Made by a program: the position numbers and the translations under genes. The notes under the pieces are model-generated. The model saw only the letters and a list, made by a program, of their open reading frames with translations, was not told the origin of the DNA and ran no database searches. 33,590 nt of DNA from a virus, in IMG/VR virus record IMGVR_UViG_3300020180_000076, positions 1 through 33,590 of that record. One strand, 5' to 3'. Positions 5,856 to 33,586 of this stretch are shown one piece after another. Position 1 is the stretch's first letter, and every line of letters starts with the position of its first letter.

Positions 5856-5875
5856 CTGTTAAGCAATTGTACGCT
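5856..5875 (-). promoter_or_regulatory. Conserved 20-bp box, copy 1 (replication operon)
   Basis: An exact copy of CTGTTAAGCAATTGTACGCT (plus strand), found also at 18432, 29301 and 31623. It lies 120 bases upstream of the first replication gene. Read on the minus strand it includes TTAACA, a possible -35 element, but the -10 region here (GTTTAT or TAGGGT) is weaker than at the other copies. It is located between the HNH operon terminator and the structured leader. Confidence 0.7.
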
Positions 5876-6492: not shown

Positions 6493-6566
6493 AGTATGCA
6501 ATATTGTACAAGTTTTGTCAAGTTATAATGCACATCTTGACAAGTATGCTATATTGCGTCTATTAT
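6493..6566. promoter_or_regulatory. Divergent sigma70-type promoters of the HNH and early units
   Basis: Rightward: TTGACA at 6537-6542, an 18-base spacer and TATTAT at 6561-6566, so transcription would start within a few bases of the ATG at 6576 (near-leaderless). Leftward: TTGACA (plus strand TGTCAA, 6516-6521), 17 bases and CATACT (6498-6493). The two -35 elements form an inverted repeat (TTGTCAAG, 13 bases, CTTGACAA). The motif GTATGC-A/T-ATATTG occurs on both sides. This looks like a shared operator where one protein could control both directions. Confidence 0.7.
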
Positions 6567-6575
6567 CTACGCATT

Positions 6576-6836
6576 ATGTTATACAATTACAATCACTCAC
6601 TTTCTAATCTTGCGTTAATTATCGGATCACGGTATGGCTGGGCTAAGTACACGGCTAGCCGTCCAGATCTATTTCAAATCATTACAATCTCTAGTAGGAT
6701 AGTATCTGTCCAGACTGATATGGAATTGAAAGAGCTTAAAAAGTTTTATAAAGAAACACGCAAAACTAATCTTAAAAACAGATCAAAGCAAAAGCTTACA
6801 AGCGGTATAAATACGCCTGATCAAGGCATTGCCTAA
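6576..6836 (+). CDS. First early-arm protein, basic, possible regulator (86 aa)
   Basis: I start at ATG 6576 (MLYNYNHSLSNL), because upstream ATGs in the frame lie in the promoter. The N-terminal 40 residues (NLALIIGSRYGWAKYTASRP) have a rhythm faintly like a Cro/CI helix-turn-helix, but I cannot confirm it. The C-terminal third is strongly basic (KKFYKETRKTNLKNRSKQK). As the first gene after the divergent promoter region, a regulator role is plausible. Its 3' end overlaps the conserved 17-bp box of the next promoter. Confidence 0.55.
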   Translation: MLYNYNHSLSNLALIIGSRYGWAKYTASRPDLFQIITISSRIVSVQTDMELKELKKFYKETRKTNLKNRSKQKLTSGINTPDQGIA

Positions 6837-6874
6837 AGGGTATATTTGACAAGTTGAGTGTAATGTTTTATACT
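6809..6874 (+). promoter_or_regulatory. Early promoter, copy 1, with upstream box
   Basis: TTGACA (6846-6851), a 17-base spacer and TATACT (6869-6874): a near-consensus sigma70 promoter. The 34 bases 6841-6874 are identical to 11934-11967. Upstream lies the shared box AAATACGCCTGATCAAG (6809-6825), followed by a small hairpin AGGC-ATT-GCCT. It drives the genes from 6976 with a leader of about 95 bases. Confidence 0.85.
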
Positions 6875-6975: not shown

Positions 6976-7173
6976 ATGCACACAAAACTAGACTACAAGA
7001 CACTCGCCAGCGATGCCAAGTCGACAAACAAAGACAAAAATGAAGCCGCCACCATGGTGATCATAGTATTATTTTTTGGCTTCCTAGTCGTAGGAGTAAT
7101 GGCACAAATCCCACGACCTACAGAACAACGCCCACAGCCTCAAATCAGTGCTATTTCAAGTCAATCTAAATAA
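6976..7173 (+). CDS. Small single-pass membrane protein (65 aa)
   Basis: A polar N-terminus of about 24 residues (rich in K and D), one hydrophobic helix (about residues 26-44, MVIIVLFFGFLVVGVMAQ), then a proline/glutamine-rich tail. By the positive-inside rule the N-terminus would be cytoplasmic. It is the first gene after a strong promoter. Roles such as superinfection exclusion or membrane takeover are possible, but nothing proves them. Confidence 0.6.
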   Translation: MHTKLDYKTLASDAKSTNKDKNEAATMVIIVLFFGFLVVGVMAQIPRPTEQRPQPQISAISSQSK

Positions 7174-7184
7174 AACTACTCTAT

Positions 7185-7523
7185 ATGACTACCTTACCCC
7201 CTGCTTTTCAGCTTTCTATCTTGACACTCTGCCAAAATAGCAAACCTTTTAACTCTTTTAACCATGCGTGGATCCTAGCCAGCATGAAGTCCTACGATGG
7301 CATCATTCAGAGTCTAGGATGTAGATTGTCCATGTTCCAGCTCGATACTCTGCAAGATCATTTGGATACCATTATTGAAGACCTAACAAAGTCTATCGAA
7401 AAAGATAAGAGTAACCCCCACTATCTTAATAAGATCATCGAGCTAGCTGGCGAAATTACAGACCAGCGAATTCAAAGAACGACAGCTTTAGAAATCGAAC
7501 TAGGCAAAAATTTATCAAACTAA
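7185..7523 (+). CDS. Hypothetical early protein (112 aa)
   Basis: It lies 11 bases after the membrane-protein gene, in the same transcript. The protein is soluble and predicted helical, with a C-terminal amphipathic stretch (LDTLQDHLDTIIEDLTKSIE onward) that could form a coiled coil. Start context CTCTATATGAC, no SD. No family recognised. Confidence 0.65.
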   Translation: MTTLPPAFQLSILTLCQNSKPFNSFNHAWILASMKSYDGIIQSLGCRLSMFQLDTLQDHLDTIIEDLTKSIEKDKSNPHYLNKIIELAGEITDQRIQRTTALEIELGKNLSN

Positions 7524-7543
7524 TCCCCTTTTTTTATCATCTT

Positions 7544-8017
7544 ATGCTAGAAAACCAAACCCAACTAGACCGTATCCGAACCATAGTCGATACCCTAAAC
7601 CGCGAAATTATGAAAATCGCAAACAGTGACCCCACTCTAGCTGATCAGCTAGATGTCCGCGACGAGCTGATGCGGCTAAACCATAAAACTTCTGACCTCT
7701 GTAAATTTTTAGAATATGTCGACAAAAACTTGGACAGGCAAGGCTTGGACTTTGAACTCGAAGAAATTTTCAATATCGGCCTCAGAAAATTCAAGCGAGT
7801 CGAGAAAAAATCTATATCAAAACTAAATACCGACAAGCTCAAAGAGCTGGTTCCAGACCAAGGTCACTATGATGAGTGTTTTGACATAGAGCTTAAAGCC
7901 AAAACCCAGCCAAATCTAGCCACAGTTCTAGCAGTTATGGGCTACAAGATAGATGTCAAGCAGCTCTATGAAGCCGAGGTTAAGCAAGGTGAATACACGA
8001 TCAAAGAAATCAATTAA
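7544..8017 (+). CDS. Hypothetical early protein (157 aa)
   Basis: It follows the previous gene by 20 bases. Residues about 1-60 are a charged helical segment (LDRIRTIVDTLNREIMKIAN), the middle is basic, and the C-terminal third is mixed. Only the general look of a small helical DNA-metabolism or scaffold-like protein can be stated. No catalytic motif or family recognised. Confidence 0.65.
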   Translation: MLENQTQLDRIRTIVDTLNREIMKIANSDPTLADQLDVRDELMRLNHKTSDLCKFLEYVDKNLDRQGLDFELEEIFNIGLRKFKRVEKKSISKLNTDKLKELVPDQGHYDECFDIELKAKTQPNLATVLAVMGYKIDVKQLYEAEVKQGEYTIKEIN

Positions 8018-8037
8018 ACCAAAAAACACCCCCTACT

Positions 8038-8118
8038 ATGCCAAACAAAAACACAAAAGAACAGCAACTACTAGGGCTAATCCGAGATATGGAATTAGCT
8101 GCCACAGATACCTACTAA
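8038..8118 (+). CDS. Possible 26-aa peptide
   Basis: ATG at 8038, then 26 codons (MPNKNTKEQQLLGLIRDMEL...) to TAA at 8116-8118. It is placed between a 157-aa gene and a strong terminator hairpin that begins two bases after its stop. The context (CCCTACTATG) is like other starts here. Amphipathic helix character; too short to be sure. Confidence 0.4.
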   Translation: MPNKNTKEQQLLGLIRDMELAATDTY

Positions 8119-8120
8119 GT

Positions 8121-8165
8121 ATCTTGATCAAGCCTCACAGAATGCGAGGGGGTTTGGATCAAGAT
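8121..8165 (+). terminator. Strong hairpin, likely terminator of the first early unit
   Basis: ATCTTGATC (8121-8129) pairs perfectly with GATCAAGAT (8157-8165), and an inner CCTC/GAGG pairing extends the stem. A T-rich stretch follows (GTTTTATCTTGAGTTTTT). It contains the CTTGATCAAG core also present in the early-promoter box, so it could double as a protein-binding site. Confidence 0.6.
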
Positions 8166-8180
8166 GTTTTATCTTGAGTT

Positions 8181-8209
8181 TTTACACTACGCTTTTATGC
8201 TATTATACA
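8181..8209 (+). promoter_or_regulatory. Possible promoter after the 8121 terminator
   Basis: TTTACA (8181-8186), 17 bases, TATACA (8204-8209). It directly follows the terminator and could start a new early unit. It overlaps the most likely start codon of the next gene at 8197; if it is used, that gene would have to start at 8254 instead. Confidence 0.4.
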
Positions 8210-8457
8210 ACCCCGCCACCGCCCCACCTACATGGTCAATTAAGCAAAGAGGAATGTTTGAAGCACTTATTTCAGACTACTCAAAAATCAGTCTTGGCAA
8301 CCCTAAACTGGCAGCCAAAGTCCGAGACAATCTAAAGAGACAATACAAAATTGAAAGCACTAAAAATCTTTCACAAATGCAGCTACAGGCTATCATAGCA
8401 ACACTTATTTCAACAATCCAAATTACTAATCCAAATTACAGCCCACTATGTCATTAA
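8197..8457 (+). CDS. Small helical protein before the ssDNA-binding gene (86 aa)
   Basis: The first in-frame ATG (8164) lies inside the terminator stem, so I prefer 8197 (MLLYNPATAPPTWSIKQRG); 8254 is the alternative. The motif 'TWSIKQRGMFEAL' resembles the small 'KQ' domains often found next to phage recombination or SSB proteins, where they may hold protein partners. It overlaps the next gene by 10 bases and is surely co-translated with it. Confidence 0.6.
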   Translation: MLLYNPATAPPTWSIKQRGMFEALISDYSKISLGNPKLAAKVRDNLKRQYKIESTKNLSQMQLQAIIATLISTIQITNPNYSPLCH

Positions 8458-9140
8458 CACTAACCTTAGAACAAAACAGCCGTGAACCAGTTGAGGCTGG
8501 CAATCATGTAGCACGGTGCGTCCAAGTCATTGACTTAGGTCACCAAACTGAGAAAGCCTTTGAATCAGAAGACACTCAATTAAATCACAAAATCAGAATC
8601 ACTTGGGAATTGCCAAACGAAATTCGTGAGTGGACGGACAGAGAGACAAACGAAGTCAAAAGCCGACCTGAAATAATCAGTCAAGAGTTTAAAGCTTCAC
8701 TTCACGAAAAGTCAAAACTTCGCAAATTACTTGTGTCTTGGCGCGGTAGAGACTTCACAGAAGACGAATTAAAGGGTTTTGAGCTCAGGAATGTACTTGG
8801 AGCACCTTGCTTTTTAAACATTGTACACGCCGAAAAAGACGGCAAAAAGTATGCCAACATCTCAGCAGTCACACCACTAGCTAAAGGCATGACTTGCCCA
8901 GATCAAATCACTGAATTGATGTATTTTGAGGTAGAAAATTTTGACCAAAATCTTTTCGACAAATTGCCAAAATTTATCCAAGAGAAACTGGCAAAATCTG
9001 AGGAACTCAAAGACAATGAGCAATTTGACTTCGTTTTTGAAAACAAAACAGCAACAGCCCCAGCCCCAACACAGCTAGCTACTGATTCAGAGTATGAACT
9101 ACCTGACATTGATCTTGAAGAAATCCAAACACCATTTTAA
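8448..9140 (+). CDS. Phage ssDNA-binding-protein-like protein (230 aa)
   Basis: The pattern EAGNHVARCVQVIDLG...ITWELPNE...SQEFKASLHEKSKLRKLLVSWRGRDFT...FELRNVLGAPCFLNIVHAEKDGKKYANISAVTPL is a well-known phage protein family, usually placed with replication genes and often annotated as a single-stranded DNA-binding protein (OB-fold). The C-terminus is acidic (DSEYELPDIDLEEIQ), as in SSBs, which use acidic tails to hold partners. It would coat ssDNA during replication. It lies in the early arm although the helicase is on the other strand. The family call is from memory of the pattern. Confidence 0.7.
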   Translation: MSLTLTLEQNSREPVEAGNHVARCVQVIDLGHQTEKAFESEDTQLNHKIRITWELPNEIREWTDRETNEVKSRPEIISQEFKASLHEKSKLRKLLVSWRGRDFTEDELKGFELRNVLGAPCFLNIVHAEKDGKKYANISAVTPLAKGMTCPDQITELMYFEVENFDQNLFDKLPKFIQEKLAKSEELKDNEQFDFVFENKTATAPAPTQLATDSEYELPDIDLEEIQTPF

Positions 9141-9226
9141 ACAACTACAAGGGGTGTAAAAAGCCCCCAAAAATCTAGCAAAAAACTTTAGATGTCATTT
9201 AGAAAATTTAATCAAATAATTAGCTT

Positions 9227-9529
9227 ATGCCCCAAAAAAATGCATTTCATTTTATGAATAAAGGCTCAAAATTTGATCGGATTTTTTCAATATTCTTTTT
9301 TAAATCGCTAATTATAGACTTAGCCACGGGGTGCGACCTTAGTCAAGACCTACAGCTACCAACCTATCAAGGGCAGTTTTTATCAATATCTCAAAAACTG
9401 ACCAAAAAAGAAATTGCAAAAAGTATCGAATTTTTAGCCAAATTTAAATCAGCAACAAAAGACAAGCTCGAAGCTCAAAAACTACTCCAAAATCATTTCA
9501 GACTCACTGACTGCGATGTTTCATTTTAA
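9227..9529 (+). CDS. Hypothetical protein (100 aa)
   Basis: It starts after an 86-base gap containing a weak GGGG/CCCC hairpin (about 9151-9168). The N-terminus contains a hydrophobic patch (FDRIFSIFFFKSLIIDLA) and the rest is polar and helical, including KLTKKEIAKSIEFLAKF. A second possible start is MNKGSKF, ten codons in. No family recognised. Confidence 0.55.
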   Translation: MPQKNAFHFMNKGSKFDRIFSIFFFKSLIIDLATGCDLSQDLQLPTYQGQFLSISQKLTKKEIAKSIEFLAKFKSATKDKLEAQKLLQNHFRLTDCDVSF

Positions 9530-9558
9530 CCCAAATTTATAAAAATCTAATCTAACCA

Positions 9559-9954
9559 ATGACCACACAAACCCCCCAATTACAAGCCTTTTTTACCAAT
9601 CCAGCTAATGTAGGGCAAGACAAACTGTTTGGATTTACTTTTGATCAAGAGAGTGAAATCGGCATAATGTTTAAAAGAATAATTTGCAAAGACGGTTTTA
9701 GTTTTAGTTGCCAAGCTGATTACTCTAAATATTGCACACCACGCATTACTTTTTATTGTATTGATTCATTTGAGTACAGTAGAATGGAGTTAGGCTATCC
9801 AAGCGCATCAGATGACTTAATTATTGAATTTGCAGATCAAAAAGAGATACCAACTAAGACAGTTTACCCTTATGTCCCAGTCGAAATAATCGAACAACTA
9901 ATCACGAAACACGGTGGCATAGACCCCGATAAATATAACCTAACCAATGTCTAA
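9559..9954 (+). CDS. Hypothetical protein (131 aa)
   Basis: The sequence is aromatic- and cysteine-containing with beta-like stretches (GFSFSCQADYSKYC, RITFYCIDSFEYS). It ends overlapping the start of the next small membrane gene by 8 bases. Slightly acidic. No family recognised; unknown early function. Confidence 0.6.
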   Translation: MTTQTPQLQAFFTNPANVGQDKLFGFTFDQESEIGIMFKRIICKDGFSFSCQADYSKYCTPRITFYCIDSFEYSRMELGYPSASDDLIIEFADQKEIPTKTVYPYVPVEIIEQLITKHGGIDPDKYNLTNV

Positions 9955-10087
9955 CGCAACCCTGTCTACAGTCCTAACAGTCACTCTAGTGATCGTGCTG
10001 GTACTCCTATCAAGCCCCCTAATACTTATATATCAAGCTGGCAAAGTAACAATTAACTTTTTTAAATGGCTTTATAGCCTTATATAA
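9947..10087 (+). CDS. Small membrane peptide (46 aa)
   Basis: ATG at 9947 overlaps the end of the previous gene; 46 codons to TAA at 10085-10087. A long hydrophobic helix spans about residues 6-29 (STVLTVTLVIVLVLLSSPLI), followed by a short basic-aromatic tail (KVTINFFKWLYSLI). A single-pass protein of this size could be a pinholin or other membrane effector. The position in the early arm makes a classic lysis role uncertain. Confidence 0.6.
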   Translation: MSNATLSTVLTVTLVIVLVLLSSPLILIYQAGKVTINFFKWLYSLI

Positions 10088-10094
10088 TCATATT

Positions 10095-10751
10095 ATGTCC
10101 AAATATATAAACCCTTATTTTGAAGAATTTAAGAAGTTAGTTTGTAGCAAATATCGAGTAAATGAAAAATTTCAATTCAAAGTCGAATTAAGCCCAAACG
10201 GCAGGGGGGGCGAGCAAATTCTGACTGGGTACATTGATTCTGATGGCGACCTAAACACAGTAAACAGCAACCAAGACAATATTAACGGTGTTGATTATGA
10301 GTGGGGGGAGAGCTGGAAAACCGTCTACAAAGGCACTTTTGAACTAATAGAGTCAACTCGCACGCTCCGAGATATAAAGGTTGGAGATATAATCGAAGAC
10401 GGAAGTCGGTCGTTTAGAGTTGCAGAGATTTATGGAGTGACTTTTAGTGCTTATCCAACAGACCACGCTTGGTATAATCTTACAGTGCTGTCTTTTGACC
10501 AGTGCGAAACTGAAGGGTTTGTGATAACCAATCAAAAAGCTGTGCCTGAGCCAGTAGTCGAAAAGATTGAGACACCAAAACCCAAGTTTAAAATTGGTGA
10601 TGTGGTTATTTATCGCAGCCTTGAAGAGAATGATATGAAGTATGTAATTAGTACAATATCAGTTATTAAATTATCTAAAACTGGTTTTATTTACACTTTA
10701 CCAAGTGGTGGTGATTATTCTGAAATGCAAATTGAACTCTACACCGACTAA
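10095..10751 (+). CDS. Hypothetical protein with SH3/KOW-like C-terminal part (218 aa)
   Basis: Begins MSKYINPYFEEFKKL. The middle is beta-rich and acidic. The C-terminal part, KPKFKIGDVVIYRSLEENDMKYVIS, looks like an SH3-type barrel start ('F-x-x-G-D-x-V' pattern), after a proline-rich linker (VPEPVVEKIETPKP). A related pattern, LRDIKVGDIIEDGSRSFRV, occurs at about residues 90-107, so there may be two such barrels. Function unknown; a DNA- or protein-binding adaptor is possible. Confidence 0.6.
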   Translation: MSKYINPYFEEFKKLVCSKYRVNEKFQFKVELSPNGRGGEQILTGYIDSDGDLNTVNSNQDNINGVDYEWGESWKTVYKGTFELIESTRTLRDIKVGDIIEDGSRSFRVAEIYGVTFSAYPTDHAWYNLTVLSFDQCETEGFVITNQKAVPEPVVEKIETPKPKFKIGDVVIYRSLEENDMKYVISTISVIKLSKTGFIYTLPSGGDYSEMQIELYTD

Positions 10752-10782
10752 CCAACTTTTTTAAAAAATAAAACCAAAAAAT

Positions 10783-11607
10783 ATGCTCCAAAACACAAAA
10801 ACCAAAATCCAATCTGAAATAAAAAAAGAAACCCCTTTTCTTAAAAATATGCTAATCTTTTTTACCATCGCTTATTTAGCCCTAAGTCTAAACCCCCCAA
10901 CCAGCAGCCTGAACCAACCAAGTCCAAAAATTGCTCAGGCTAGCGAATTTATCCAGACCGCTGAAATCGAGCCACTGGCCACACGGCAACCATTTTCCGG
11001 ACCTCAGGAAAATCAAAAACTTGATACCAACGCCGTGACGGTAAATCCCGTTGCGGTCAAAAGTCCAGAACGAGCCAAAAAACTCAATGACTGGATCAAG
11101 TCAAAAGTGCCAAACAGTCCATTAAACAATACAAATTTTGACACTGGTCAAATATTGCTAGATATTGAAAAGGAAACAGGTGTAAAGGCTGAATTTATTT
11201 TAGCTAAAGCTCACCAAGAGACCAAGTTAGGCACAAGTGGGGTCTGTAGGCGCAATGTTGGCAGTGTTGGCGAGACTGACAGTGACCGTCGTACTGGCAA
11301 GTTTTGTCAAGATTTCAGATCGGTTGATCAGACTAAATCAACAGATAGAATGGAGCATTACCAAACAGATGACTATTTACTTAGGTCACTGCGTGCGATC
11401 GCTGACACTATGAATAATCAATATCTAGGCGGCTCAACCGTACTTTGCCAGCTATCCAGTGGCTACAACGGCTGCAACAAAGACCAGATCAAAGCGATGA
11501 AAGGCAAATGGTATGCAAGCAACCCGAACCACTCACGAGCCTTAGCCAGTCTTCTGACAGATATTACAGGTCAAGAGTGGACACTACAATCAAATTTTAA
11601 AAATTAA
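10783..11607 (+). CDS. Membrane-anchored lysozyme/glucosaminidase-like protein (274 aa)
   Basis: Residues about 22-38 form a hydrophobic anchor or uncleaved signal (NMLIFFTIAYLALSLNPP). A flexible Pro/Asn-rich linker reaches about residue 100. Residues about 115-265 look like a peptidoglycan-hydrolase fold of the lysozyme/glucosaminidase type: VKAEFILAKAHQETKLGTSG places a putative catalytic Glu (the E in HQET) on the first helix, and the C-terminal GYNGCNKDQIKAM and SRALASLLTDITG segments fit the rest. The cysteines suggest disulfides outside the membrane. It may help DNA entry or alter host cell wall. It is separate from the CHAP endolysin and lies in the early arm, which is unusual. Confidence 0.6.
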   Translation: MLQNTKTKIQSEIKKETPFLKNMLIFFTIAYLALSLNPPTSSLNQPSPKIAQASEFIQTAEIEPLATRQPFSGPQENQKLDTNAVTVNPVAVKSPERAKKLNDWIKSKVPNSPLNNTNFDTGQILLDIEKETGVKAEFILAKAHQETKLGTSGVCRRNVGSVGETDSDRRTGKFCQDFRSVDQTKSTDRMEHYQTDDYLLRSLRAIADTMNNQYLGGSTVLCQLSSGYNGCNKDQIKAMKGKWYASNPNHSRALASLLTDITGQEWTLQSNFKN

Positions 11608-11615
11608 ATAAATAT

Positions 11616-11882
11616 ATGTCACACCTAAAAACAACCATCGAAATACAAGACAATATCCGAAGACGCTACCTGTTAGTCGACAATCTGAGGCTTGGAGAAG
11701 AAATCGAACGAGGCAACAAAGATGCGTTAAAGTGGGCAAAAAAGCAACTTAAAAAAAGAACCAGCGTCTCCATAACCAACATTTCAAGGCTTGAAAATGA
11801 GCTTGCTGGCTGGAGAAAAGAGCTAAGTATTCTAGAAAATGCGACCCTAAATATTGCAAATAACAATTTTGACATAATCTAA
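11616..11882 (+). CDS. Small basic coiled-coil protein (88 aa)
   Basis: It lies 8 bases after the lysozyme-like gene. The sequence is helical and charged (DNIRRRYLLVDNLRLGEEIE, KWAKKQLKKR), with leucine spacing at about residues 57-78 suggesting a coiled coil. Its last codons and stop (ATC TAA) are already part of the 136-bp repeat that follows. No family recognised. Confidence 0.6.
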   Translation: MSHLKTTIEIQDNIRRRYLLVDNLRLGEEIERGNKDALKWAKKQLKKRTSVSITNISRLENELAGWRKELSILENATLNIANNNFDII

Positions 11883-12010
11883 TATATGCCACACCCCCTA
11901 CAAATACGCCTGATCAAGCCAGTTTGGCTGTAGTATATTTGACAAGTTGAGTGTAATGTTTTATACTATGTTTAAGATCAATTTAAGATCGCTTAAACAA
12001 CACTTATATG
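11875..12010 (+). repeat. 136-bp direct repeat, copy A (partner 13239-13374)
   Basis: Aligned without gaps to 13239-13374 with 13 differences (about 90% identity). Each copy holds, in order: the stop of the upstream gene, a short ORF (MPH..QIRLIKPV), the 17-bp box, a promoter, an inverted repeat GTTTAAG/CTTAAAC in the leader and the ATG of the downstream gene. Most differences fall in the promoter spacer and -10, so the flanking control elements appear to be preserved. Likely made by duplication or by recombination between cassettes. Confidence 0.9.
11902..11967 (+). promoter_or_regulatory. Early promoter, copy 2, with upstream box
   Basis: Box AAATACGCCTGATCAAG (11902-11918), hairpin AGCCA-GTT-TGGCT (11917-11929), TTGACA (11939-11944), 17 bases, TATACT (11962-11967). 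It drives the gene at 12008 with a leader of about 35 bases that contains GTTTAAG...CTTAAAC, a possible operator or hairpin. Confidence 0.85.
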
Positions 12011-12457
12011 ACCAATACAATTACAATTAACAATCAAGAAATCAAGATTAATAGCTATAACAATTTTGACCTATCAAAGTTTGACTTTACAGAAATCAGA
12101 GATTCTGGGTATGTTTTACTTGATGATCAGCAACTATCAAGCAAGTACAGGGAGGGGCTAGAGCCTACAGGTAATTATATTGGAACAGCCCTAACAGGTT
12201 TTAGGACGGACACTAAATCACCTATTCCAATAACTGAAAGATTATACCAAGGAATTATTACATGGACACCTCGAAAAGTTCAGTATAGCTCTCACATTAA
12301 TCAAGGAAAAAAAGGTTATACAATTAGCATTATCGACTCATATGATGAGCCAGATGTAGCTTTTTTCAAGCAATCAAAAGTCAAAGAGCTAGAAATCCAA
12401 ACAGGATTATCAGAAAAGGAATTAGCTAATTGGATAATAGCAACTTACAGATTTTAA
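12008..12457 (+). CDS. Hypothetical acidic cassette protein 1 (149 aa)
   Basis: First gene after repeat A and its strong promoter. Beta-rich N-terminal half (TITINNQEIKINSY, YVLLDDQQL) and a C-terminal helical part (KELEIQTGLSEKELANWII). No known fold recognised. Three genes follow before and after repeat B, all small, soluble and acidic. Such strongly expressed unknown early genes are where phages keep anti-defence proteins, which is inference only. Confidence 0.6.
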   Translation: MTNTITINNQEIKINSYNNFDLSKFDFTEIRDSGYVLLDDQQLSSKYREGLEPTGNYIGTALTGFRTDTKSPIPITERLYQGIITWTPRKVQYSSHINQGKKGYTISIIDSYDEPDVAFFKQSKVKELEIQTGLSEKELANWIIATYRF

Positions 12458-12486
12458 CACTTTTTACAAAACAATCTTTTTATTTT

Positions 12487-12738
12487 ATGACTACTCCAAA
12501 CGCTTTTGATATTGAAACAATCTCTAATGAATTACTAAGATTCGCATCAGTCGATTCAATGATTGAACGCCTTAACATTGACACTAGCCGATATAACGAA
12601 GTCTCACAAATAATGTCTGATTTTAAAATTGCTTGGGATAGCGCCCCCTGTGACGAAGAGGGTGCAACTAAATCACAAGATCAGTTTATGGATCAACTTT
12701 TAGACTTTGCAGCCAAAGAGTTAGAAAGCTTAGTTTAA
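12487..12738 (+). CDS. Hypothetical acidic cassette protein 2 (83 aa)
   Basis: I start at ATG 12487 (MTTPNAFDIET); an in-frame ATG 57 bases upstream lies inside the previous gene. About 17 Asp/Glu against 6 Lys/Arg, net near -11 in 83 residues. Predicted fully helical. The size and charge resemble known DNA-mimic inhibitors, but there is no sequence proof. Function unknown. Confidence 0.55.
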   Translation: MTTPNAFDIETISNELLRFASVDSMIERLNIDTSRYNEVSQIMSDFKIAWDSAPCDEEGATKSQDQFMDQLLDFAAKELESLV

Positions 12739-12766
12739 AACTTTTTACAAATCAATCTTTTAATAT

Positions 12767-13246
12767 ATGTCTTCTTATTTAAACTTCAACGATAAAAACT
12801 ACATTATTCACTACACTAACGATATTCGAGACTATTTTTCTTACATAAAAGAAAATAATATTGATAAGTACTCTCTTCTGTATTTTCCCATCCATAATGG
12901 AGATATTGTGGAAATTGAAAATCCTTCTCAGGAAAAAGTTGAAGACTTGCTTGCAGACGAAATCGTATCAGGCAGTAAAGTTTGGACATTTAACTGTGAT
13001 TACGGCAACTGGGTAAATAGACATGATCCGTTCGATGGCTGGAGAGTTTTAACTGTTACTAGAGAGACATACTTGAACGAAAGGCTTTGCCGTGCTGTCA
13101 ATTATAGTTTAGTTGATAGGGTTTTCTATGAGGCAGGATCTGATCAAGATAATTTACTTATTGATCTTAATGATGTTGAGCTTATAGAATTACTAGCTCA
13201 GTCTAGCAATAAACTTGTCGAAAGGTTTTTAGATAAGCTAATCTAA
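12767..13246 (+). CDS. Hypothetical acidic cassette protein 3 (159 aa)
   Basis: Starts at TATATGTCTTC without an SD. Aromatic-rich N-terminus (NYIIHYTNDIRDYFSYIKEN), a central beta-like part containing GDIVEIENPSQE, then a helical tail (LIDLNDVELIELLAQ). About 28 acidic against 15 basic residues. The stop codon lies in repeat B. No family recognised. Confidence 0.6.
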   Translation: MSSYLNFNDKNYIIHYTNDIRDYFSYIKENNIDKYSLLYFPIHNGDIVEIENPSQEKVEDLLADEIVSGSKVWTFNCDYGNWVNRHDPFDGWRVLTVTRETYLNERLCRAVNYSLVDRVFYEAGSDQDNLLIDLNDVELIELLAQSSNKLVERFLDKLI

Positions 13247-13374
13247 TATATGCCACACCACCCACAAATACGCCTGATCAAGCCAGTTTGATTGTAGTAA
13301 ATTTGACAAGTTGTAAAGAATGTTTGATAATATGTTTAAGATCAATTTTAGATCGCTTAAACAACACTTATATG
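13239..13374 (+). repeat. 136-bp direct repeat, copy B
   Basis: Second copy of the 11875-12010 repeat, same length, 13 substitutions. In this copy the -10 is GATAAT instead of TATACT, the short ORF is 13 codons instead of 15, and the hairpin next to the box is broken (AGCCAGTTTGATT). The two copies bracket three genes, as expected for a cassette that could be gained or lost by recombination. Confidence 0.9.
13266..13331 (+). promoter_or_regulatory. Early promoter, copy 3, with upstream box
   Basis: Box AAATACGCCTGATCAAG (13266-13282), TTGACA (13303-13308), 17 bases, GATAAT (13326-13331). The leader to the ATG at 13372 carries GTTTAAG...CTTAAAC as in copy 2. It drives the last plus-strand gene. 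Confidence 0.85.
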
Positions 13375-13848
13375 GCTATAATCACTAAAGAAGGATACGA
13401 AGCAAAAACAAGATACGCTCAAAAGAATGATCAAGATAATGCTGAAATTCTTGTCGAAGCAGGAGTAAGCCGAGATGTAATTGACAATATGTCACACATC
13501 ACGGCGACTAGACACGCAGTCCATTGTATGAATAGATTGGATCTATTCAACACCGAATCAGCTAATTTTGACAGCGCTTGGGAAATGGTTAACGAGCTAC
13601 AAGAATTTGCTGGAGTTAGCCCCCTTGATGAATTTGACAGCCCTCTTGATACAGACTGGGATCAAGTTATGGATGATGAAGATAAATCTCTTCACAATGA
13701 TAATTTTAGCCAATACTTCGAATATTCTGGCACTTTTTATTCGAGAAAGATTGAAGAATTAAACACCTCTGTGGAAGCAAAGCTAAAAGAATTCGATCTG
13801 AAGTACGGGACATCTTATTGTCCTACTGGACTAAGCAGAAATTTTTAA
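13372..13848 (+). CDS. Hypothetical, strongly acidic cassette protein 4 (158 aa)
   Basis: Start at ATG 13372, the position matching the start after repeat A; an upstream in-frame ATG lies in the promoter. About 31 Asp/Glu against 14 Lys/Arg, with a very acidic middle (DEFDSPLDTDWDQVMDDEDK). The C-terminal 40 residues are helical with a mixed charge. A DNA-mimic or anti-defence role would fit the charge and position; nothing proves it. It is followed by the strong convergent terminator. Confidence 0.6.
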   Translation: MAIITKEGYEAKTRYAQKNDQDNAEILVEAGVSRDVIDNMSHITATRHAVHCMNRLDLFNTESANFDSAWEMVNELQEFAGVSPLDEFDSPLDTDWDQVMDDEDKSLHNDNFSQYFEYSGTFYSRKIEELNTSVEAKLKEFDLKYGTSYCPTGLSRNF

Positions 13849-13882
13849 CACTTTTGTACAATTTATTTTTAATCAAAAACCA

Positions 13883-13906
13883 CCCCCAAACAGGGGGCTT
13901 TTTTTT
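13883..13906 (+). terminator. Intrinsic terminator between convergent units (bidirectional)
   Basis: CCCCC-AAACA-GGGGG (13883-13897), then C and eight T on the plus strand. On the minus strand the same stem is followed by TGGTTTTTG. It ends the early arm (plus) and, from the other side, the lysis end of the late arm. Confidence 0.93.
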
Positions 13907-13909: not shown

Positions 13910-14218
13910 CTAGTGTTTAGGACTAATAATATCTTTTAAAAACTCATCTTTAGCCTCTTGGCTTGCTACAAGCCCAACTAGCCTAGCTTTGTCCGTCTCT
14001 AGGATAAACACCTTATTTTCGAGTGTTTCAATTTTTGTTTGGCTTACAATCAGTAGCTCTTTTAGTTCCTCGACCACGGCTGTCAAAGCAGCCATTTCAC
14101 TTTTTTCGCTATCCCTAAGGTAGTCACCTACCATTTGTCCAATTTGGAGGAGGACTAGACCTATCGTCAATCCTGTAGAGCCTGATCCAGTTAGAGCTTT
14201 GATTATTTCAGAATCCAT
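13910..14218 (-). CDS. Holin candidate with C-terminal coiled coil (102 aa)
   Basis: Residues about 12-32 (GSTGLTIGLVLLQIGQMVGDY) form one hydrophobic helix. A long coiled-coil region follows (MAALTAVVEELKELLIVSQT, with regular L/V spacing to about residue 80). It lies directly downstream of the CHAP endolysin in the last position of the late operon, which is where holins usually sit. One membrane helix plus coiled coil is an atypical holin, so the alternative is a small spanin-like or membrane-organising lysis protein. Confidence 0.55.
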   Translation of the reverse strand: MDSEIIKALTGSGSTGLTIGLVLLQIGQMVGDYLRDSEKSEMAALTAVVEELKELLIVSQTKIETLENKVFILETDKARLVGLVASQEAKDEFLKDIISPKH

Positions 14219-14220
14219 AT

Positions 14221-14280
14221 AACTATTGATAACTATTGATTTGTTTTGATATGTATTGATAACTATTGATAACTATTGAT
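14221..14280. repeat. Six tandem 10-bp units (AACTATTGAT type)
   Basis: Units at 14221, 14231, 14241, 14251, 14261 and 14271: AACTATTGAT twice, TTGTTTTGAT, ATGTATTGAT, then AACTATTGAT twice. The 10-bp period is close to one DNA helical turn, and every unit ends in TTGAT. The array fills the gap between endolysin and holin candidate and contains the endolysin stop codon. It could be a protein-binding array, a bent-DNA element, or simply slippage-made DNA. Confidence 0.9.
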
Positions 14281-14959
14281 TGGCTTTATAATTTTTGATC
14301 TCGTTGTCACGGTCTGCCAAGGCATTTGCAACTTCCGGATCACACTTCTTACCCTCGACCCAGCTATTATACAAGGCATTTAAATCATTAATATAGCTAA
14401 ATCGCTCCTGCTCTTCTCGACCGCGTGGATTCATCCAAGCAAGCGGTTTTACTGGCTCTTTAGGTTTTGGTGGTTCTACTTTAGCTACCTCTTTAGGCAC
14501 TAACCAGCCCAAACACGATCCAACTCCAAACTTGCCAAGTCGGATCTGCTGGAAAGTAGTATAGCCATATTTTGTCAGTCTAATTGCGTTGGCACCTAGT
14601 CCGTCACCATTACCACTGCCACCGTTCTGCTCTAGCACCCATACAAAGTCTTTGTCTGCACTGTCGACCGTGCCAACATGACCACTGGGGTTTCTAAATG
14701 TTGAATCAAATACGATTATAGCCCCTTTAGGTGGCACACCATTTGGGCTGTTTGGTATTCGGTTTACAAATTCGTCACTAACCAAACTGTTTGACTTCAT
14801 AATGTCTTTAGCACCCCCACTATACCCAACTGGTCTAAAAGGAAAGCCCCAAACGTCTTTGACCGTGGCTTTTGCTGTGTCTACGCACTGGAATCGAAAC
14901 ACGCCGTCAATATCGATTCGTTTGCCTAATAAATTGTTTTTAAAGTTAAAATAGTCCAT
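14273..14959 (-). CDS. CHAP-domain endolysin (228 aa)
   Basis: A CHAP amidase/endopeptidase: catalytic Cys25 in FQCVDTAK, His94 in PSGHVGTVD, and Glu110/Asn112 in VLEQNGG, in the order and spacing of the family. Gly-rich loops (GYSGGAKD, GGSGNGDG) are also typical. A proline-lysine linker (EPPKPKEPVK) separates it from a charged helical C-terminal part that may bind the cell wall. It would cut peptidoglycan peptides at lysis. I start at ATG 14959 (MDYFNFKNN); the longer frame overlaps the upstream gene and has no conserved sequence. Confidence 0.88.
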   Translation of the reverse strand: MDYFNFKNNLLGKRIDIDGVFRFQCVDTAKATVKDVWGFPFRPVGYSGGAKDIMKSNSLVSDEFVNRIPNSPNGVPPKGAIIVFDSTFRNPSGHVGTVDSADKDFVWVLEQNGGSGNGDGLGANAIRLTKYGYTTFQQIRLGKFGVGSCLGWLVPKEVAKVEPPKPKEPVKPLAWMNPRGREEQERFSYINDLNALYNSWVEGKKCDPEVANALADRDNEIKNYKANQ

Positions 14960-18431: not shown

Positions 18432-18451
18432 CTGTTAAGCAATTGTACGCT
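18432..18451 (-). promoter_or_regulatory. Conserved 20-bp box, copy 2 (tail-fibre unit)
   Basis: Exact copy of the box. On the minus strand it runs TTGCTTAACAG, then GTGCCGCGGCG, then TATAGTATAAG and the ATG of the fibre gene. TTAACA serves as a possible -35, and GTATAA as -10 gives 15 bases spacing. The transcript would begin almost at the ATG. Similarity to copy 3 continues beyond the box on the upstream side. Confidence 0.75.
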
Positions 18452-26909: not shown

Positions 26910-28199
26910 TTACACTAGGTTAATGACTCTAAAAGCGTTTTGCTCTAGGTTATCTGGTGCTGTAACTCCAGCTGTGACAACTGTGGTTGGTCTGAATTTT
27001 TGAGCGTATTCCATTGATCCAGCTGCGTAAGTTCGAGATACAAATTGTACTAGGCCCTCTTTAAGTTGTACTATTCCACCATCGTTTAGGTTTAGAATAT
27101 CTCCTTCTAATACTAAAGTATACATCTTTAAAGGTACTAAGTAGACGCGGCTAGTTTGGACTTGAGCTGTAGGTACTACTAAGAATGGAATGGTGCTGAC
27201 TTGTTTGGTTATTTTACCAGTCAGTGGATCAATTGCACTTGTGGCTAAGTAGCGACCGTTTAAGTCTTTTACTGTTGCGATTGTTGCCCAGCTATATCTG
27301 TTACCGATCATTACATACTCTCCCTCCTCAACATCTTGTAGGTTTGAGGGTAATAAGAATAAGCTAGCTTTATAGACTAGATCATAAGCATCACTTGATG
27401 CTGTCCCACCTAAACCTGTAATAACTAAATCAACTGCTGCTTTAGTTGCGTAAGCTACTGCACCGATTGTATTGCTAGCGTCGCCTGTACCGTTTACACC
27501 GTAGTTGTTAAGAATACCTCTAATGTTATCGCCTCTAGCTGTACCGTTGGCAGCACCTGAACCATTTGCTAAAATAGCCACACATAGTGAGTTTTGGACT
27601 CGTCGAGCTAGTCTAGCAATGTATTTGCCTAAGGTTTCAAGATCAAGAGATTTCATGACAAAGTCACTGATCTTCATTGACGCTTGTACTTTTTGGTTTG
27701 GTGTAAGTCTATCACCTGTCCTCAAAACTTCGTCTATATCTGTACCAGCTGCGACTTCGGATAAAATAGCGGCGTTCTGTTCGGAGTCAAAATCAAACAT
27801 TTGATAGTTTGTATTTGCACCTCTATTAATAATATTGACACGGCTTAGGATTTCAGTAGATCTGATCAAAGCCTCTAATGATGGAATAACAGTAGTTGCA
27901 ATAGTTGGGGTTGTAGAAGTTTGAGTAATATCAAAGTTCTTTTGGGTTTCCATTTCAGCTTCGGTCAAAGCTCTAAACTTAATAGTTTGCTTTTCTGAGT
28001 CCCAGTTTTTGGCGTTCCATTCTTTTGAGAAAGAGTTTGAAAATGTTTTTAAATTTTCTGGATTTGCACAAAGAGCGTCGATAGCGTACAAAACGGTAGC
28101 TCCGAAGTCTTTTTGACCTTTAGCGTCTGTGATTGCTTTAGTGACTTCGGTGTTGTCACCTTGTCTTGTTAATTCAAAGTTAAATGTTTTTATTGACAT
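26910..28199 (-). CDS. Major capsid protein, HK97 fold (429 aa)
   Basis: It follows the protease/scaffold and precedes the connector genes. A helical N-terminal arm is followed by the E-loop/P-domain region (VIPSLEALIRSTEILSRVNI), a long LETLGKYIARLARRVQNSL spine helix and the beta A-domain ending in YAQKFRPTTVV. This order fits the HK97 fold. Length (429) lies in the usual range. Its N-terminus of about 100 residues may act as a built-in delta domain in addition to the scaffold. Confidence 0.85.
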   Translation of the reverse strand: MSIKTFNFELTRQGDNTEVTKAITDAKGQKDFGATVLYAIDALCANPENLKTFSNSFSKEWNAKNWDSEKQTIKFRALTEAEMETQKNFDITQTSTTPTIATTVIPSLEALIRSTEILSRVNIINRGANTNYQMFDFDSEQNAAILSEVAAGTDIDEVLRTGDRLTPNQKVQASMKISDFVMKSLDLETLGKYIARLARRVQNSLCVAILANGSGAANGTARGDNIRGILNNYGVNGTGDASNTIGAVAYATKAAVDLVITGLGGTASSDAYDLVYKASLFLLPSNLQDVEEGEYVMIGNRYSWATIATVKDLNGRYLATSAIDPLTGKITKQVSTIPFLVVPTAQVQTSRVYLVPLKMYTLVLEGDILNLNDGGIVQLKEGLVQFVSRTYAAGSMEYAQKFRPTTVVTAGVTAPDNLEQNAFRVINLV

Positions 28200-29300: not shown

Positions 29301-29320
29301 CTGTTAAGCAATTGTACGCT
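29301..29320 (-). promoter_or_regulatory. Conserved 20-bp box, copy 3 (capsid unit)
   Basis: Exact copy. On the minus strand TTAACA, then 17 bases, then TTATAC, five bases, and the ATG at 29273: a good promoter spacing that puts the transcript start at or next to the ATG. The box also lies 13 bases in front of a 37-codon plus-strand frame. Confidence 0.8.
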
Positions 29321-29447: not shown

Positions 29448-31594
29448 TCTGCTGGATTATAAATGGTTGTACATTTACATCTCGCATGCCCTACAGGGCT
29501 ACTAACTCCGCTACTAAAAAGATCAGTTATACCAATCCTGCCTTGCCTTTCGTTGGCTATACAAAGTGGGCAAACATCTTGCAAAGTCGTTAGCCATTCT
29601 TTAGTCCCTTCTGGAAATTCAATCAGATACATCCGCTCACGAGTCTTTTCAATCGCTTCTGCTACTGCTGTAATTGCTATGAGTTCGGCTCTAGCTAATC
29701 CAAAAGCTGGCAAGCCTTTAAGTATGAGTTGTGCTATTTGGGGCGCGCCCATGTTTATATTTGTCTTTATAATATTTTGGATTTGGCTAGTGGTCTCTAC
29801 ATCCACCGAATCAAACATATCTGGCAAGCCTTTTAAAACCGCCTCAGTGAATTTGTCGATTTGATCAATCACGGCTTGTGGGTATACACCGTCGAAATAA
29901 TCTCTTTGAAATGCAAAGTTGGTTCGTTTATCTTTTTTGATTTCGTCCAGTGCTAGCCCGGCAAACGCCAAAAGGTCTTTTTTTAGGCTAGGAAAGCTGT
30001 AAAAGGTCTCTATTTTAGGGAGCCGGACAGTATAGGTGTTTAGATCAATATTGTCGGCCTTTTCAAGCTCTTTGACATAAGTAGTCACTTGCTTAGTGAT
30101 CGCCTCAATCCACTTGTTTACAAAGCCTTTTTTTTTACTGTTGCCTAAATAGAGTTCTGATAGTAGTGCTTTGTCCGTCGGGCTGGGAAGTGCGAACGCC
30201 ACTTTGGTAAAACCCCCACTACTATTATTTAACTGCTCTTTTGGTTTGGTTTTGGCTTCGACTTCTATGGTGTCGGTGTTTGGATTTGGCAAAGCCTCGA
30301 CTGCTGGAGCTGCCCAATCTTTTAGGAATACATCGCCGCCCTCAGTTGGTTCAAGTCCGCATACTTCACGGTGTTCATTGACCGTGACAAGATTTGTTTC
30401 AAAATGCTTGCGTGACTGCTCTTCCAGTGCTAATCGGTCTGGATTGCTAGGTGGCAAGTAGTCGATATAAAATGATTCAGTTGTATTTATGCCGTAAAAA
30501 GGTAAAAAGTACTCATTGCATAGTTCGTCAAACTGGTCCTCAAAAGCGTGACCAACCTTGCCATACACGGCATAGCTGAAGGTGGCGGCGTTGCTATATG
30601 TAAGCCCTTTGTCGCCATCGCCAACATCGGACATAGTGAGACTGTAGCTTGATAGTATTTCAGTTTTAGATTTGACCAGTAATTCCAAAAACTGTATATC
30701 ACGGTTTGATTTACCTAGCTCAAAGACTTTGTCTAAACCGTAAGCATAACCAACTCTAAAGGACTTTTGTACGCCTGAAAAGGTGTCATTGATCTTGTCA
30801 ACCATTCTTTGAATAATGGTCTTACCTTGCTTGTCTGGTACTTTTTTACCGTCTACCATATCGCTGGCAAGTTGACCGCCACTACTCGCAGCATCTGAAT
30901 TGAATCCTAGTAGTGTTGTCCCAATAAAAGCGTTTGAAAATATGAAGTTATTTGATCTTAATCCATTATTTTGTAGCAATATATAGTTGAAAGCACAATC
31001 TAAACGGCTTGGTGGGACTATCCAGTGCTTAAATACTGGATCTTTGAAATGGTATAGGTCGGTACGGTCTACTAGATTTGACATCTCTTTAATCTCGTTG
31101 TTGTTGCCGTCTTTGAAAGCGTATCTTGTTGTATTTGTCACGTCGTCGTGATACACATTGAACCGCCTAAGTGACCATACTGCCAGTTCATCATTTGCGT
31201 CTGGCATTATGATACAAGATCCTTCTTTTGCCGTGATATTTATGATTTTATCCTCTAAATCTGCCCAGTTTTTCTTTGTATATATCAAATTATAAACCCG
31301 TTTTTGAGTGCGTTCTTTTAGCTTTTGGGTGGCTGGTGTGTTTTGATCATTTTGGGTAATTACTACACGGCGACCATTAGCCCCAATATTCGCTTGGTAT
31401 ATACTGTATATATGTGGCATGATCGAGCTTGACCGCTCTATTTCATCATACTGCCTAAATGATAGCACCCTTGGATTGATCGGGGTATATTTGTTGTAGC
31501 TACCACCATTAAAGGCGTTGACCGTCTGGAATAGGTGATCGTGCTGACCGCTCAAAAAGTCATCAGAATTGAAGCCAAATTTTTGCTGTGACAT
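29444..31594 (-). CDS. Portal protein fused to MuF-type minor head protein (716 aa)
   Basis: The N-terminal about 430 residues are a portal protein (SFRQYDEIERSSSIMPHIYS, FELGKSNRDIQFLELLVKSK and LTYSNAATFSY). The C-terminal about 200 residues carry a MuF/SPP1-gp7-type domain with DVCPLCIANERQG and the final VGHARCKCTTIYNP, which is the C-x-x-C ... H-x-x-C-x-C zinc-like signature of the family. Normally these are two genes. The start is taken at ATG 31594 (MSQQKFGFNS), which matches the promoter spacing; the 13 residues upstream would start inside the box. The zinc-like cluster is complete. Confidence 0.8.
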   Translation of the reverse strand: MSQQKFGFNSDDFLSGQHDHLFQTVNAFNGGSYNKYTPINPRVLSFRQYDEIERSSSIMPHIYSIYQANIGANGRRVVITQNDQNTPATQKLKERTQKRVYNLIYTKKNWADLEDKIINITAKEGSCIIMPDANDELAVWSLRRFNVYHDDVTNTTRYAFKDGNNNEIKEMSNLVDRTDLYHFKDPVFKHWIVPPSRLDCAFNYILLQNNGLRSNNFIFSNAFIGTTLLGFNSDAASSGGQLASDMVDGKKVPDKQGKTIIQRMVDKINDTFSGVQKSFRVGYAYGLDKVFELGKSNRDIQFLELLVKSKTEILSSYSLTMSDVGDGDKGLTYSNAATFSYAVYGKVGHAFEDQFDELCNEYFLPFYGINTTESFYIDYLPPSNPDRLALEEQSRKHFETNLVTVNEHREVCGLEPTEGGDVFLKDWAAPAVEALPNPNTDTIEVEAKTKPKEQLNNSSGGFTKVAFALPSPTDKALLSELYLGNSKKKGFVNKWIEAITKQVTTYVKELEKADNIDLNTYTVRLPKIETFYSFPSLKKDLLAFAGLALDEIKKDKRTNFAFQRDYFDGVYPQAVIDQIDKFTEAVLKGLPDMFDSVDVETTSQIQNIIKTNINMGAPQIAQLILKGLPAFGLARAELIAITAVAEAIEKTRERMYLIEFPEGTKEWLTTLQDVCPLCIANERQGRIGITDLFSSGVSSPVGHARCKCTTIYNPAD

Positions 31595-31622: not shown

Positions 31623-31642
31623 CTGTTAAGCAATTGTACGCT
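31623..31642 (-). promoter_or_regulatory. Conserved 20-bp box, copy 4 (portal unit)
   Basis: Exact copy. On the minus strand TTAACA, 16 bases, TATACC, five bases to ATATG: the transcript would begin about two bases from the portal ATG. The box overlaps the last codons and stop of the winged-helix gene, so its sequence is constrained both as protein code (KRTIA*) and as a DNA signal. Confidence 0.8.
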
Positions 31643-31916
31643 TGAGCTGGATTAGCATTTGGAGCTGAAAGGCTACTTTTGTGGTTTGGATTATTTCAGC
31701 GCCTAGGGTGGTTAATTCATAGTCTCTAGCCTCAGATCGCTGGCTTTTGTCGTGAATCTCAATCAGCCCAAAGTCTTGGAGTTTGATCATTCTTTGACTG
31801 ACTGCCGATTTTGACATCTCAAAAACAGCGGCTAGGTAGGCACATTTGCCACCGCCCTGTGATATAAGTAAGAGCATTTCGAGGTCTGTTTGATCGGGTA
31901 TGTATTGTCGTGGCAT
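31626..31916 (-). CDS. Winged-helix (MarR-like) regulator between terminase and portal (96 aa)
   Basis: The pattern GGGKCAYLAAVFEMSKSAVSQRMIKLQDFGLIEIHD is a winged helix: recognition helix around SKSAVSQRMIKL and wing after DFGLIEI. The ELTTLGAEIIQ end is as in MarR/PadR-type regulators. A single such gene in a packaging operon is uncommon, and it sits exactly where one of the conserved boxes is found. It is a candidate for the protein that binds the box, though this is inference. Confidence 0.75.
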   Translation of the reverse strand: MPRQYIPDQTDLEMLLLISQGGGKCAYLAAVFEMSKSAVSQRMIKLQDFGLIEIHDKSQRSEARDYELTTLGAEIIQTTKVAFQLQMLIQLKRTIA

Positions 31917-31935: not shown

Positions 31936-33135
31936 TTAGTAGCCGTATAGGGTTGAGTAGTCTTGATTATTGTTTAGCAGTTCATTGATTAGAGCTAAGC
32001 TAATTACGCAGTCATCGTGGTAGCCGTCAGGTGCATTGTACCGCACCGCCCCCATTGGTGATACTTCGTAGCCAAATATTTCAAGCTCAGATATTAACTC
32101 AGGAAATGGATAAAACTCGATTGATCTGTTATCTATTGCCACTGATAAGTTTTGAATTAGTGGGTTTTTGCTAGAGCTTGTAAATTTAAAACTTCTCACA
32201 TTCATTCCGCCGTTGTTTAGGTCGTCAAATATGGCATCGCCCACACCAGTTGAGTCGATTATAGCCTCGCGGCAATTAAACCGCTGGTATAGGGATCTAA
32301 TACGTGTTTTTTGGAAGCCCCAATCAATTTGATTAAAACGGTCTTGAAATACTACCTTGCCAGTTTTTTGATCCGCAATATAGATCACAGTAAAATCTTG
32401 GTGCTTGGCAAGATCTATGCTCATGACATAGTCACAGCCGTCTTGTGGGTCTTCGTGTAGCTCTTGGATTACACATTGATTTATATTCCTAAAGACTGAT
32501 CCAGCACCGTCAATAAATTCAGCTAGATATTCTTGACTCCAGACTTCTTGGGGGGTTTCTGATTTAAGTCTTTCAATTCCTTTTTTAGAGTAAAAAGGGC
32601 AGTCAAAAATACTGAAATGATAGTGGCACCAATCCACCGCTTCAAGGTGGCAAAGTTTGTGAAACTTGTTTTTGCCTTTGGGTGTGCCTAAGATACGCCC
32701 CCCTTTAGCATTTTTAAACATTGGTCTTAAGGTGTTATCCCATAAACTGTCTTTCTTTAAAATTATCCCAGCCTCGTTTAAAATATAAAAATCATACTCA
32801 AATCCTTCCATATTTTCAGGACTTTCAGCGCTTCCAAAATCTAAATAAGAGCCATTTATAAACTTGATTGTTTTCTTCTGATAGTTCCACTCTGTAATTT
32901 CACCAACTAAAGGCTTAAAATACCGCTCAAAATATCTGTCAATATTCTTATTAATAGTGTCCACCCAAATACCTGTTGAGTTGGGTGTATCAAGTAGTTT
33001 TTCAATTATATATCTACAAGCCCCCATGGTCTTAAAAGACCGTCTACACGACCTTATAGTGCCAAATGGTTTGGCATCAAAAAAAGCTGTATGCATAGCT
33101 TCCCATTCCCAATTTAGATCAATCTGATGGCTCAT
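31936..33135 (-). CDS. terL: Terminase large subunit (399 aa)
   Basis: An N-terminal ATPase with a Walker-A-like SCRRSFKT at about residues 29-36 and a Walker-B region FYILNEAG (N120, E121), followed by the coupling motif GTPKG at 150-154. A C-terminal RNase-H-like nuclease carries metal-binding Asp241 (SIDLAKHQD), the Asp of IIDSTGVGD and the final GYHDDCVISLAL. It packages DNA into the head and cuts it. The canonical Walker B 'D-E' is N-E here, and Walker A is non-canonical, as in several divergent terminases. It overlaps the small subunit by 17 bases. Confidence 0.9.
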   Translation of the reverse strand: MSHQIDLNWEWEAMHTAFFDAKPFGTIRSCRRSFKTMGACRYIIEKLLDTPNSTGIWVDTINKNIDRYFERYFKPLVGEITEWNYQKKTIKFINGSYLDFGSAESPENMEGFEYDFYILNEAGIILKKDSLWDNTLRPMFKNAKGGRILGTPKGKNKFHKLCHLEAVDWCHYHFSIFDCPFYSKKGIERLKSETPQEVWSQEYLAEFIDGAGSVFRNINQCVIQELHEDPQDGCDYVMSIDLAKHQDFTVIYIADQKTGKVVFQDRFNQIDWGFQKTRIRSLYQRFNCREAIIDSTGVGDAIFDDLNNGGMNVRSFKFTSSSKNPLIQNLSVAIDNRSIEFYPFPELISELEIFGYEVSPMGAVRYNAPDGYHDDCVISLALINELLNNNQDYSTLYGY

Positions 33136-33586
33136 CTGATATTATAGTTTTTATAGTTTTTGACACTTTGATTTCAGTGTTCAAGTTTTGGTTGTCATTT
33201 TTAGCGTAAGTAGTCGGTAAATTCATTTTTACTCGCAGCACTTCCCAAAGTGGTTTAGCTTTAATTGCTTGATCTAAAGTTAGTTGACCTTGACCAATTA
33301 GAGCGGCAACCGTGACTTCAAAATTTGAAATTGCTTTTAGTATGTTATCGTTTGCTATTTTTACCTTTGGATCATTCTCTAAATCTTTGACCGCCTTTTG
33401 AGTTTGGGCTTTTAGGATTGCTTCTTTTTCAGATCGCCAACCCTTTGTTTTTAGCTTCCAGAAGCCATTTGTAGCCGTTTTTTTGGCAAGTCGTAAAGAT
33501 GTCGCCAAAAAGTCTTGGAGTTCTAATATATCACTTTCAAAATATCTTTGTTTGATTTCTGACCAGTCGTATTTTGCAGTTGCCAT
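33119..33586 (-). CDS. terS: Terminase small subunit-like protein (155 aa)
   Basis: MATAKYDWSEIKQRYFESDI, with GFWKLKTKGWRSEKEAI following, is a phage small-terminase N-terminal pattern ('kYDW..Ik..Y...' and 'TkGW..EK'). The rest is a helical oligomerisation part. It recognises the phage packaging site and passes DNA to TerL. Its ATG is in the terminal repeat (33584-33586, same as bases 11-13), so the contig cut is inside its leader. The order TerS-TerL is standard. Confidence 0.8.
   Translation of the reverse strand: MATAKYDWSEIKQRYFESDILELQDFLATSLRLAKKTATNGFWKLKTKGWRSEKEAILKAQTQKAVKDLENDPKVKIANDNILKAISNFEVTVAALIGQGQLTLDQAIKAKPLWEVLRVKMNLPTTYAKNDNQNLNTEIKVSKTIKTIISDEPSD

Follow-up and report, generated by a model that had tools for sequence, protein, structure and literature searches.

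Intergenic repeats that carry promoters may serve gene expression, gene exchange or both. In the 33,590-nucleotide viral DNA analysed here (the window), two near-identical sequences bracket three genes of a rightward block, and the earlier note read this arrangement as an exchangeable, moron-like cassette in which new genes are swapped behind a fixed promoter. Is the repeat primarily a joint for exchanging genes, or is it a regulatory element shared by several transcription units?

Extent and parts of the repeated module

The reported 136-base duplication holds: a gapless alignment of 11875-12010 with 13239-13374 shows 13 differences (90% identity), and the two copies are each other's best match inside the genome (BLAST E 2e-50), far above chance. 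They are direct repeats separated by 1,364 bases and occupy the full gene-to-gene gap on either side of the three-gene block 12008-13246 (Table 1). As the earlier note had it, each copy contains the stop codon of the upstream gene and ends precisely at a start codon (ATG 12008 for copy 1, ATG 13372 for copy 2). Homology sets in at about 11877/13241, within a common TAATCTAA that holds the stop, and outside the borders the sequences have nothing in common. The longest exact block between the two copies is 27 bases. No counterpart of the 136-base module was found in the collections searched.

Missing from the earlier note is a third, partial copy at 6806-6874, which BLAST within the genome recovers with 87% identity over 69 bases (E 4e-19). 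It is followed by gene 6976, which opens the rightward block (end at 13848) when the small ORF 6576-6836 is not counted. The 35 bases of its core (6840-6874) are identical to 11933-11967 in copy 1. All three copies share the box AATACGCCTGATCAAGSCA, which shows 0 differences over 26 bases between copies 1 and 2; a genome-wide scan with the 19-base box, allowing up to 4 mismatches, gave no site besides the three copies. From the start of the box to the minus-35 hexamer there are 36 bases in all three cases (6810 to 6846, 11903 to 11939 and 13267 to 13303), and in the 11-base filler between box and core copy 3 shares almost nothing with copies 1 and 2. Constant spacing across unrelated filler is the pattern expected of a phased regulatory site. 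In addition, the box of copy 3 is translated in a different frame from that of copy 1, as the end of ORF 6576-6836, so the constraint acts on DNA. Together, these sequence features speak for a regulated promoter that belongs to a single phage regulon, and for a DNA element rather than a peptide. That the 136-base repeat is a regulon promoter module present in three copies is well supported.

The sigma-70 promoter claim is likewise confirmed, with near-consensus hexamers (11/12) in both full copies; the minus-10 hexamers TATACT and GATAAT differ at two positions and have equal consensus scores. With the predicted start set the usual 7 bases past the minus-10 hexamer, transcription would begin at about 6881, 11974 and 13338, and the centre of the box falls at about -60.5 in all three copies. 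Class I activators sit near this position, for example CRP at sites near -61.5, and we know of no regulator site that the box resembles. The likeness to class I activator-dependent promoters lies in the position of the box, and unlike those the promoters here are near consensus; since near-consensus promoters need no activator, the box could instead serve repression or another role.

The leader inverted repeat that had been described is present in copies 1 and 2 as TGTTTAAG-15-CTTAAACA, with perfect 8-base arms 15 bases apart, but as an RNA hairpin it is weak (-2.8 kcal/mol); copy 3 is without it. As the predicted start falls inside the left arm, RNA can contain only part of the dyad. An element that straddles the start is more in keeping with an operator in DNA than with a hairpin in RNA, and the former may be the better guess. 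No terminator-like sites were found in 11860-12010 or 13225-13374. The sequence GATC is over-represented genome-wide (171 occurrences vs. about 118 expected) in a phage that encodes an N6/N4 methylase; the box contains it, and the leader dyad has it at two places. An effect of GATC methylation was considered and set aside, the GATC count being its sole basis.

The 13 differences between copies 1 and 2 are unevenly spread: the 26-base box has 0, the 40-base leader 1 and the 35-base core 8, a clustering (Fisher p 0.0045) that includes five adjacent positions. All 8 core differences belong to copy 2, copy 1 being the same as copy 3 there. This pattern suggests patchy exchange among the three copies, and would fit such exchange under selection for promoter function.

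Table 1 Coordinates of the modules, their parts and the adjoining genes and joints.
Feature	Position	Strand	Remarks
Partial module, copy 3	6806..6874	+	Box and promoter core only; heads rightward gene block
Box, copy 3	6810..6828	+	1 difference in 19; overlaps 3' end of ORF 6576-6836, other frame
Sigma-70 promoter, copy 3	6846..6874	+	TTGACA-17-TATACT, same as copy 1
Module, copy 1	11877..12010	+	Stop of gene 11616-11882 to ATG of gene 12008; 90% identical to copy 2, gapless
Short ORF, copies 1 and 2	11886..11933 (copy 1, 15 codons); 13250-13291 (copy 2, 13 codons)	+	Sequence read directly; probably not functional
Box, copy 1	11901..11926	+	Imperfect dyad around TGATCA; centre about -60.5 from predicted start
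Sigma-70 promoter, copy 1	11939..11967	+	TTGACA-17-TATACT, 11/12
DNA dyad, copy 1	11969..11999	+	Across predicted start; possible operator
Orphan gene	12008..12457	+	149 aa, pI 5.5; no match in Pfam, PHROGs, PADLOC, phages, viral contigs
Short linker, genes 12008/12487	12453..12489	+	28/31 identical to next linker
Orphan gene	12487..12738	+	83 aa, pI 4.1; no match in Pfam, PHROGs, PADLOC
Short linker, genes 12487/12767	12734..12769	+	Repeats preceding linker, 28/31
Orphan gene	12767..13246	+	159 aa, pI 4.5; no match in Pfam, PHROGs, PADLOC
Module, copy 2	13241..13374	+	Stop of gene 12767-13246 to ATG of gene 13372
Box, copy 2	13265..13290	+	Dyad; 0 differences from copy 1 over 26 bases
Sigma-70 promoter, copy 2	13303..13331	+	TTGACA-17-GATAAT, 11/12
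DNA dyad, copy 2	13333..13363	+	Inverted-repeat arms
Orphan gene behind copy 2	13372..13848	+	158 aa, pI 4.4; no match in Pfam, PHROGs, PADLOC
Degenerate short linker	13845..13875	+	After stop of gene 13372; about 1 in 3000, first-order null
Terminator-like stem and T run	13883-13897	+	End of rightward block

Genes behind the modules and their joints

The three enclosed genes had been called unknown and acidic. They are indeed orphans, and two of them are strongly acidic (pI 4.1 and 4.5), but the first is just mildly so (5.5); gene 13372, which follows copy 2, is likewise acidic (4.4). Nothing above threshold was obtained for the four orphan proteins against Pfam, PHROGs and PADLOC, for three of the four against phage records and for two of the four against viral contigs; the searches also took in plasmids, again with nothing above threshold. 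Codon use supports the annotated frame best in all four genes, weakly for 12767, and AlphaFold run without an alignment gave a mean pLDDT of 34 for 12008-12457 and 39 for 13372-13848, models that were set aside. Paralogy among the cargo genes was not above background, and neither was similarity among the genes behind and before the two modules (best Z 2.4, like other gene pairs). With modules 90% alike and flanking genes unrelated, it appears that the module was copied or exchanged and the gene behind it was not.

The block 12008-13246 has 33.4% G+C, vs. 38.9% for 6976-11882, and is the most AT-rich 1.2 kb region of the genome; 1.1% of equal-size windows are as low. Its internal joints carry a short linker, and this repeat, together with the promoter modules, indicates that the block is put together with repeated joints of two types. 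After 13246 the three-gene block lacks a terminator, the next one lying past gene 13372. The motif pair ACTTTTTACAAA..CAATCTTTTTAT recurs just 5' of starts, at 12453-12489 and 12734-12769 and upstream of 6976, 14956 (minus strand) and 16376 (minus strand). A Shine-Dalgarno sequence is missing at most starts, many of which read ..AT|ATG. Further upstream in the rightward block, 10783-11607 encodes a basic protein whose N-terminal segment is hydrophobic and whose glucosaminidase match is weak, below the cutoff; there is in addition a CHAP endolysin at 14273, and tandem TTGATAACTA repeats at 14219-14287 lie just 5' of a leftward gene with its start at 14218.

Origin of the copies

We consider it probable, on the whole, that the repeat is a regulated promoter module of one regulon and that duplication or exchange involved the spacer but not the gene behind it. 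The sequence shows the three copies, their constant spacing, the sharp borders, the lack of kinship among the genes and the composition; binding, transcription and recombination are inferred from it, and the proposed movement of the module from this one genome. A trans-acting DNA-binding protein, coded by phage or host, would bind the box about 60 bases 5' of the predicted start and influence host RNA polymerase at the sigma-70 promoter beside it. Putative candidates for it in the phage are the product of ORF 6576-6836 and an HTH-like protein, 31626-31916. Copy 3 would drive the entire rightward block, copies 1 and 2 would restart transcription before its last four genes, and the dyad at their start points would possibly serve as an operator. 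Copies 1 and 2 would have arisen by duplication or exchange of a complete gene-to-gene spacer, most simply by recombination between modules, through which the AT-rich orphan block 12008-13246 would have been introduced or marked off. Against recombination, the exact blocks of at most 27 bases are short for a RecA-type process.

Alternatively, the modules could be first of all homology arms for swapping or deleting accessory blocks, a process that would itself keep the copies alike. Borders that run from stop to ATG, orphan and AT-rich cargo and the second repeated linker at the internal joints all agree with this, and recombination of copy 1 with copy 2 would delete 12008-13246, after which gene 13372 would still have an intact module. 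However, the block has no terminator after it, the longest exact block is 27 bases, and copy 3, the same regulatory unit, lies outside any such bracket. We regard an exchangeable cassette as possible but doubtful. As the third copy shows, the module is in the first place a regulatory promoter used in common; gene swapping at the modules is plausible, and would be secondary to that role. A more elaborate version, which we hold tentatively and think rather unlikely, is a plug-in array in which accessory genes, some perhaps directed against host defences, sit between repeated joints of two types: the long joint would bring a regulated promoter, the short joint would keep genes in one transcript, and exchange at either would spare expression.

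The mosaic nature of the copies, with the core of copy 1 equal to that of copy 3 and its flanks like those of copy 2, could also reflect gene conversion, in which two old, independent promoters of one regulon were recently homogenised while the genes stayed in place. The similarity, however, covers parts without evident function (the first bases of the module and the short ORF) and extends exactly to both gene borders, and this explanation seems unlikely. Tandem duplication of a promoter and gene unit, with later divergence of the genes beyond recognition, would account for direct repeats 1,364 bases apart and for two downstream genes that are both small and acidic. Yet the noncoding modules are 90% identical, and the proteins resemble each other no more than other pairs do; coding sequence would not be expected to outpace the modules to that extent, which makes this very improbable.

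The short peptide ORF noted earlier is open in copies 1 and 2 and has a start context, TAATATATG, like real starts of this phage, but it is not conserved as a peptide: copy 1 has MPHPLQIRLIKPVWL (15 codons), copy 2 has MPHHPQIRLIKPV (13 codons, a TGG having become TGA), and copy 3, with its box in a different frame, has no such ORF. As the ORF ends upstream of the predicted transcription start, it is no leader peptide of this promoter, and a function as leader or signalling peptide is scarcely credible.

Known systems and genome context

Repeated intergenic promoter modules before small unknown genes recall the PeSL (promoter early stem-loop) cassettes of T4-type phages, which, as cited in PMC4503421 and PMC3950731, are proposed to allow gene shuffling and have similar motifs reported from the archaeal virus HGTV-1. 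The near-consensus promoters of the host sigma-70 type, three sites at 11/12 recognised from their sequence, are a further likeness. Unlike PeSL, the module here has no terminator, its inverted repeat crosses the predicted start and folds weakly as RNA, it includes a far-upstream box, and it occurs in three copies only, in a phage of about 33.6 kb that is not T4-type. Morons are defined by a promoter-gene-terminator anatomy (PMC3029335). The locus shares with them its own promoter, foreign-looking composition and genes set between neighbours, and copy 2, gene 13372 and the terminator at 13883-13897 make up the full anatomy, the only place where this is so; the three-gene block, unlike a moron, has no terminator of its own. 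The moron-like cassette of the earlier note is supported in part: the precise borders, unrelated genes, orphan AT-rich cargo, second linker and mosaic copies agree with it, but the terminator is missing. The module would work like the joints proposed for PeSL but without the terminator, and is neither a PeSL nor a complete moron.

Among mycobacteriophages, the 17-bp repeats of Cluster O, between which two deletions have been inferred (PMC4351075), and the start-associated sequences (SAS/ESAS) of Cluster K, whose ribosome-binding core led to their attribution to translation (PMC3203893), are similar in being short sequences repeated upstream; they precede many small non-structural genes. The short linker here resembles SAS in placement. 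Unlike SAS, the box lies about 85-105 bases before the start, and no AGGAG-like core was found before starts; unlike the Cluster O repeats, which are mostly off promoters, it is fixed to a promoter.

Viral contigs, phage records and prokaryote genomes, collections that may omit very near records, yielded no relative carrying the module region. The one close TerL relative, viral contig L005 (85%, 7.9 kb), does not include the module region. In that contig methylase, small terminase and large terminase adjoin; the methylase and terminase genes of the window lie at its opposite ends (1-1457 and 31936-33586), and the window is therefore probably a circularly permuted, nearly complete genome. A TerL scan of species genomes matched only a distant Clostridiales contig, and the best TerL matches are small or unrelated phages, with T4-like cyanophages at just 22%. 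The single viral-contig match to the box and promoter pattern (L004) was rejected as chance and unrelated. The promoter-core pattern also gave a single match (L034), the compared part of which has no protein or DNA similarity to the window. The capsid candidate 26910-28199 and the proteins 8448-9140 and 10783-11607 had no relatives where searched, and RNA families and tRNAs were not found.

Other promoter-like sequences occur elsewhere in the window. The sequence AGCGTACAATTGCTTAACAG is present four times without mismatch on the minus strand (5856-5875, 18432-18451, 29301-29320 and 31623-31642), upstream of leftward genes that include those starting at 31594, 29273 and 18407; no exact match was found in viral contigs. 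TTAACA is a possible minus-35 there, with TATACC, TATACT or TATAAG 16-18 bases further, almost at the ATG, and these sites could be a second promoter class giving nearly leaderless transcripts. Region 6493-6576, with divergent near-consensus promoters (rightward 6537-6566, leftward 6521-6493) and the inverted repeat TTGTCAAG/CTTGACAA, looks like a control region; its rightward promoter would leave ORF 6576-6836 (86 aa, basic) nearly leaderless.

Most of what is known of how phages gain or swap accessory genes while keeping expression intact comes from T4-type phages, from morons and from comparative work on mycobacteriophages. The promoter module described here would add a small and otherwise unknown phage to these, one whose module includes a regulator box upstream. 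The module also flags the four orphan genes as accessory candidates, presumably controlled like the head of the rightward block, and makes them a sensible place to seek anti-defence functions.
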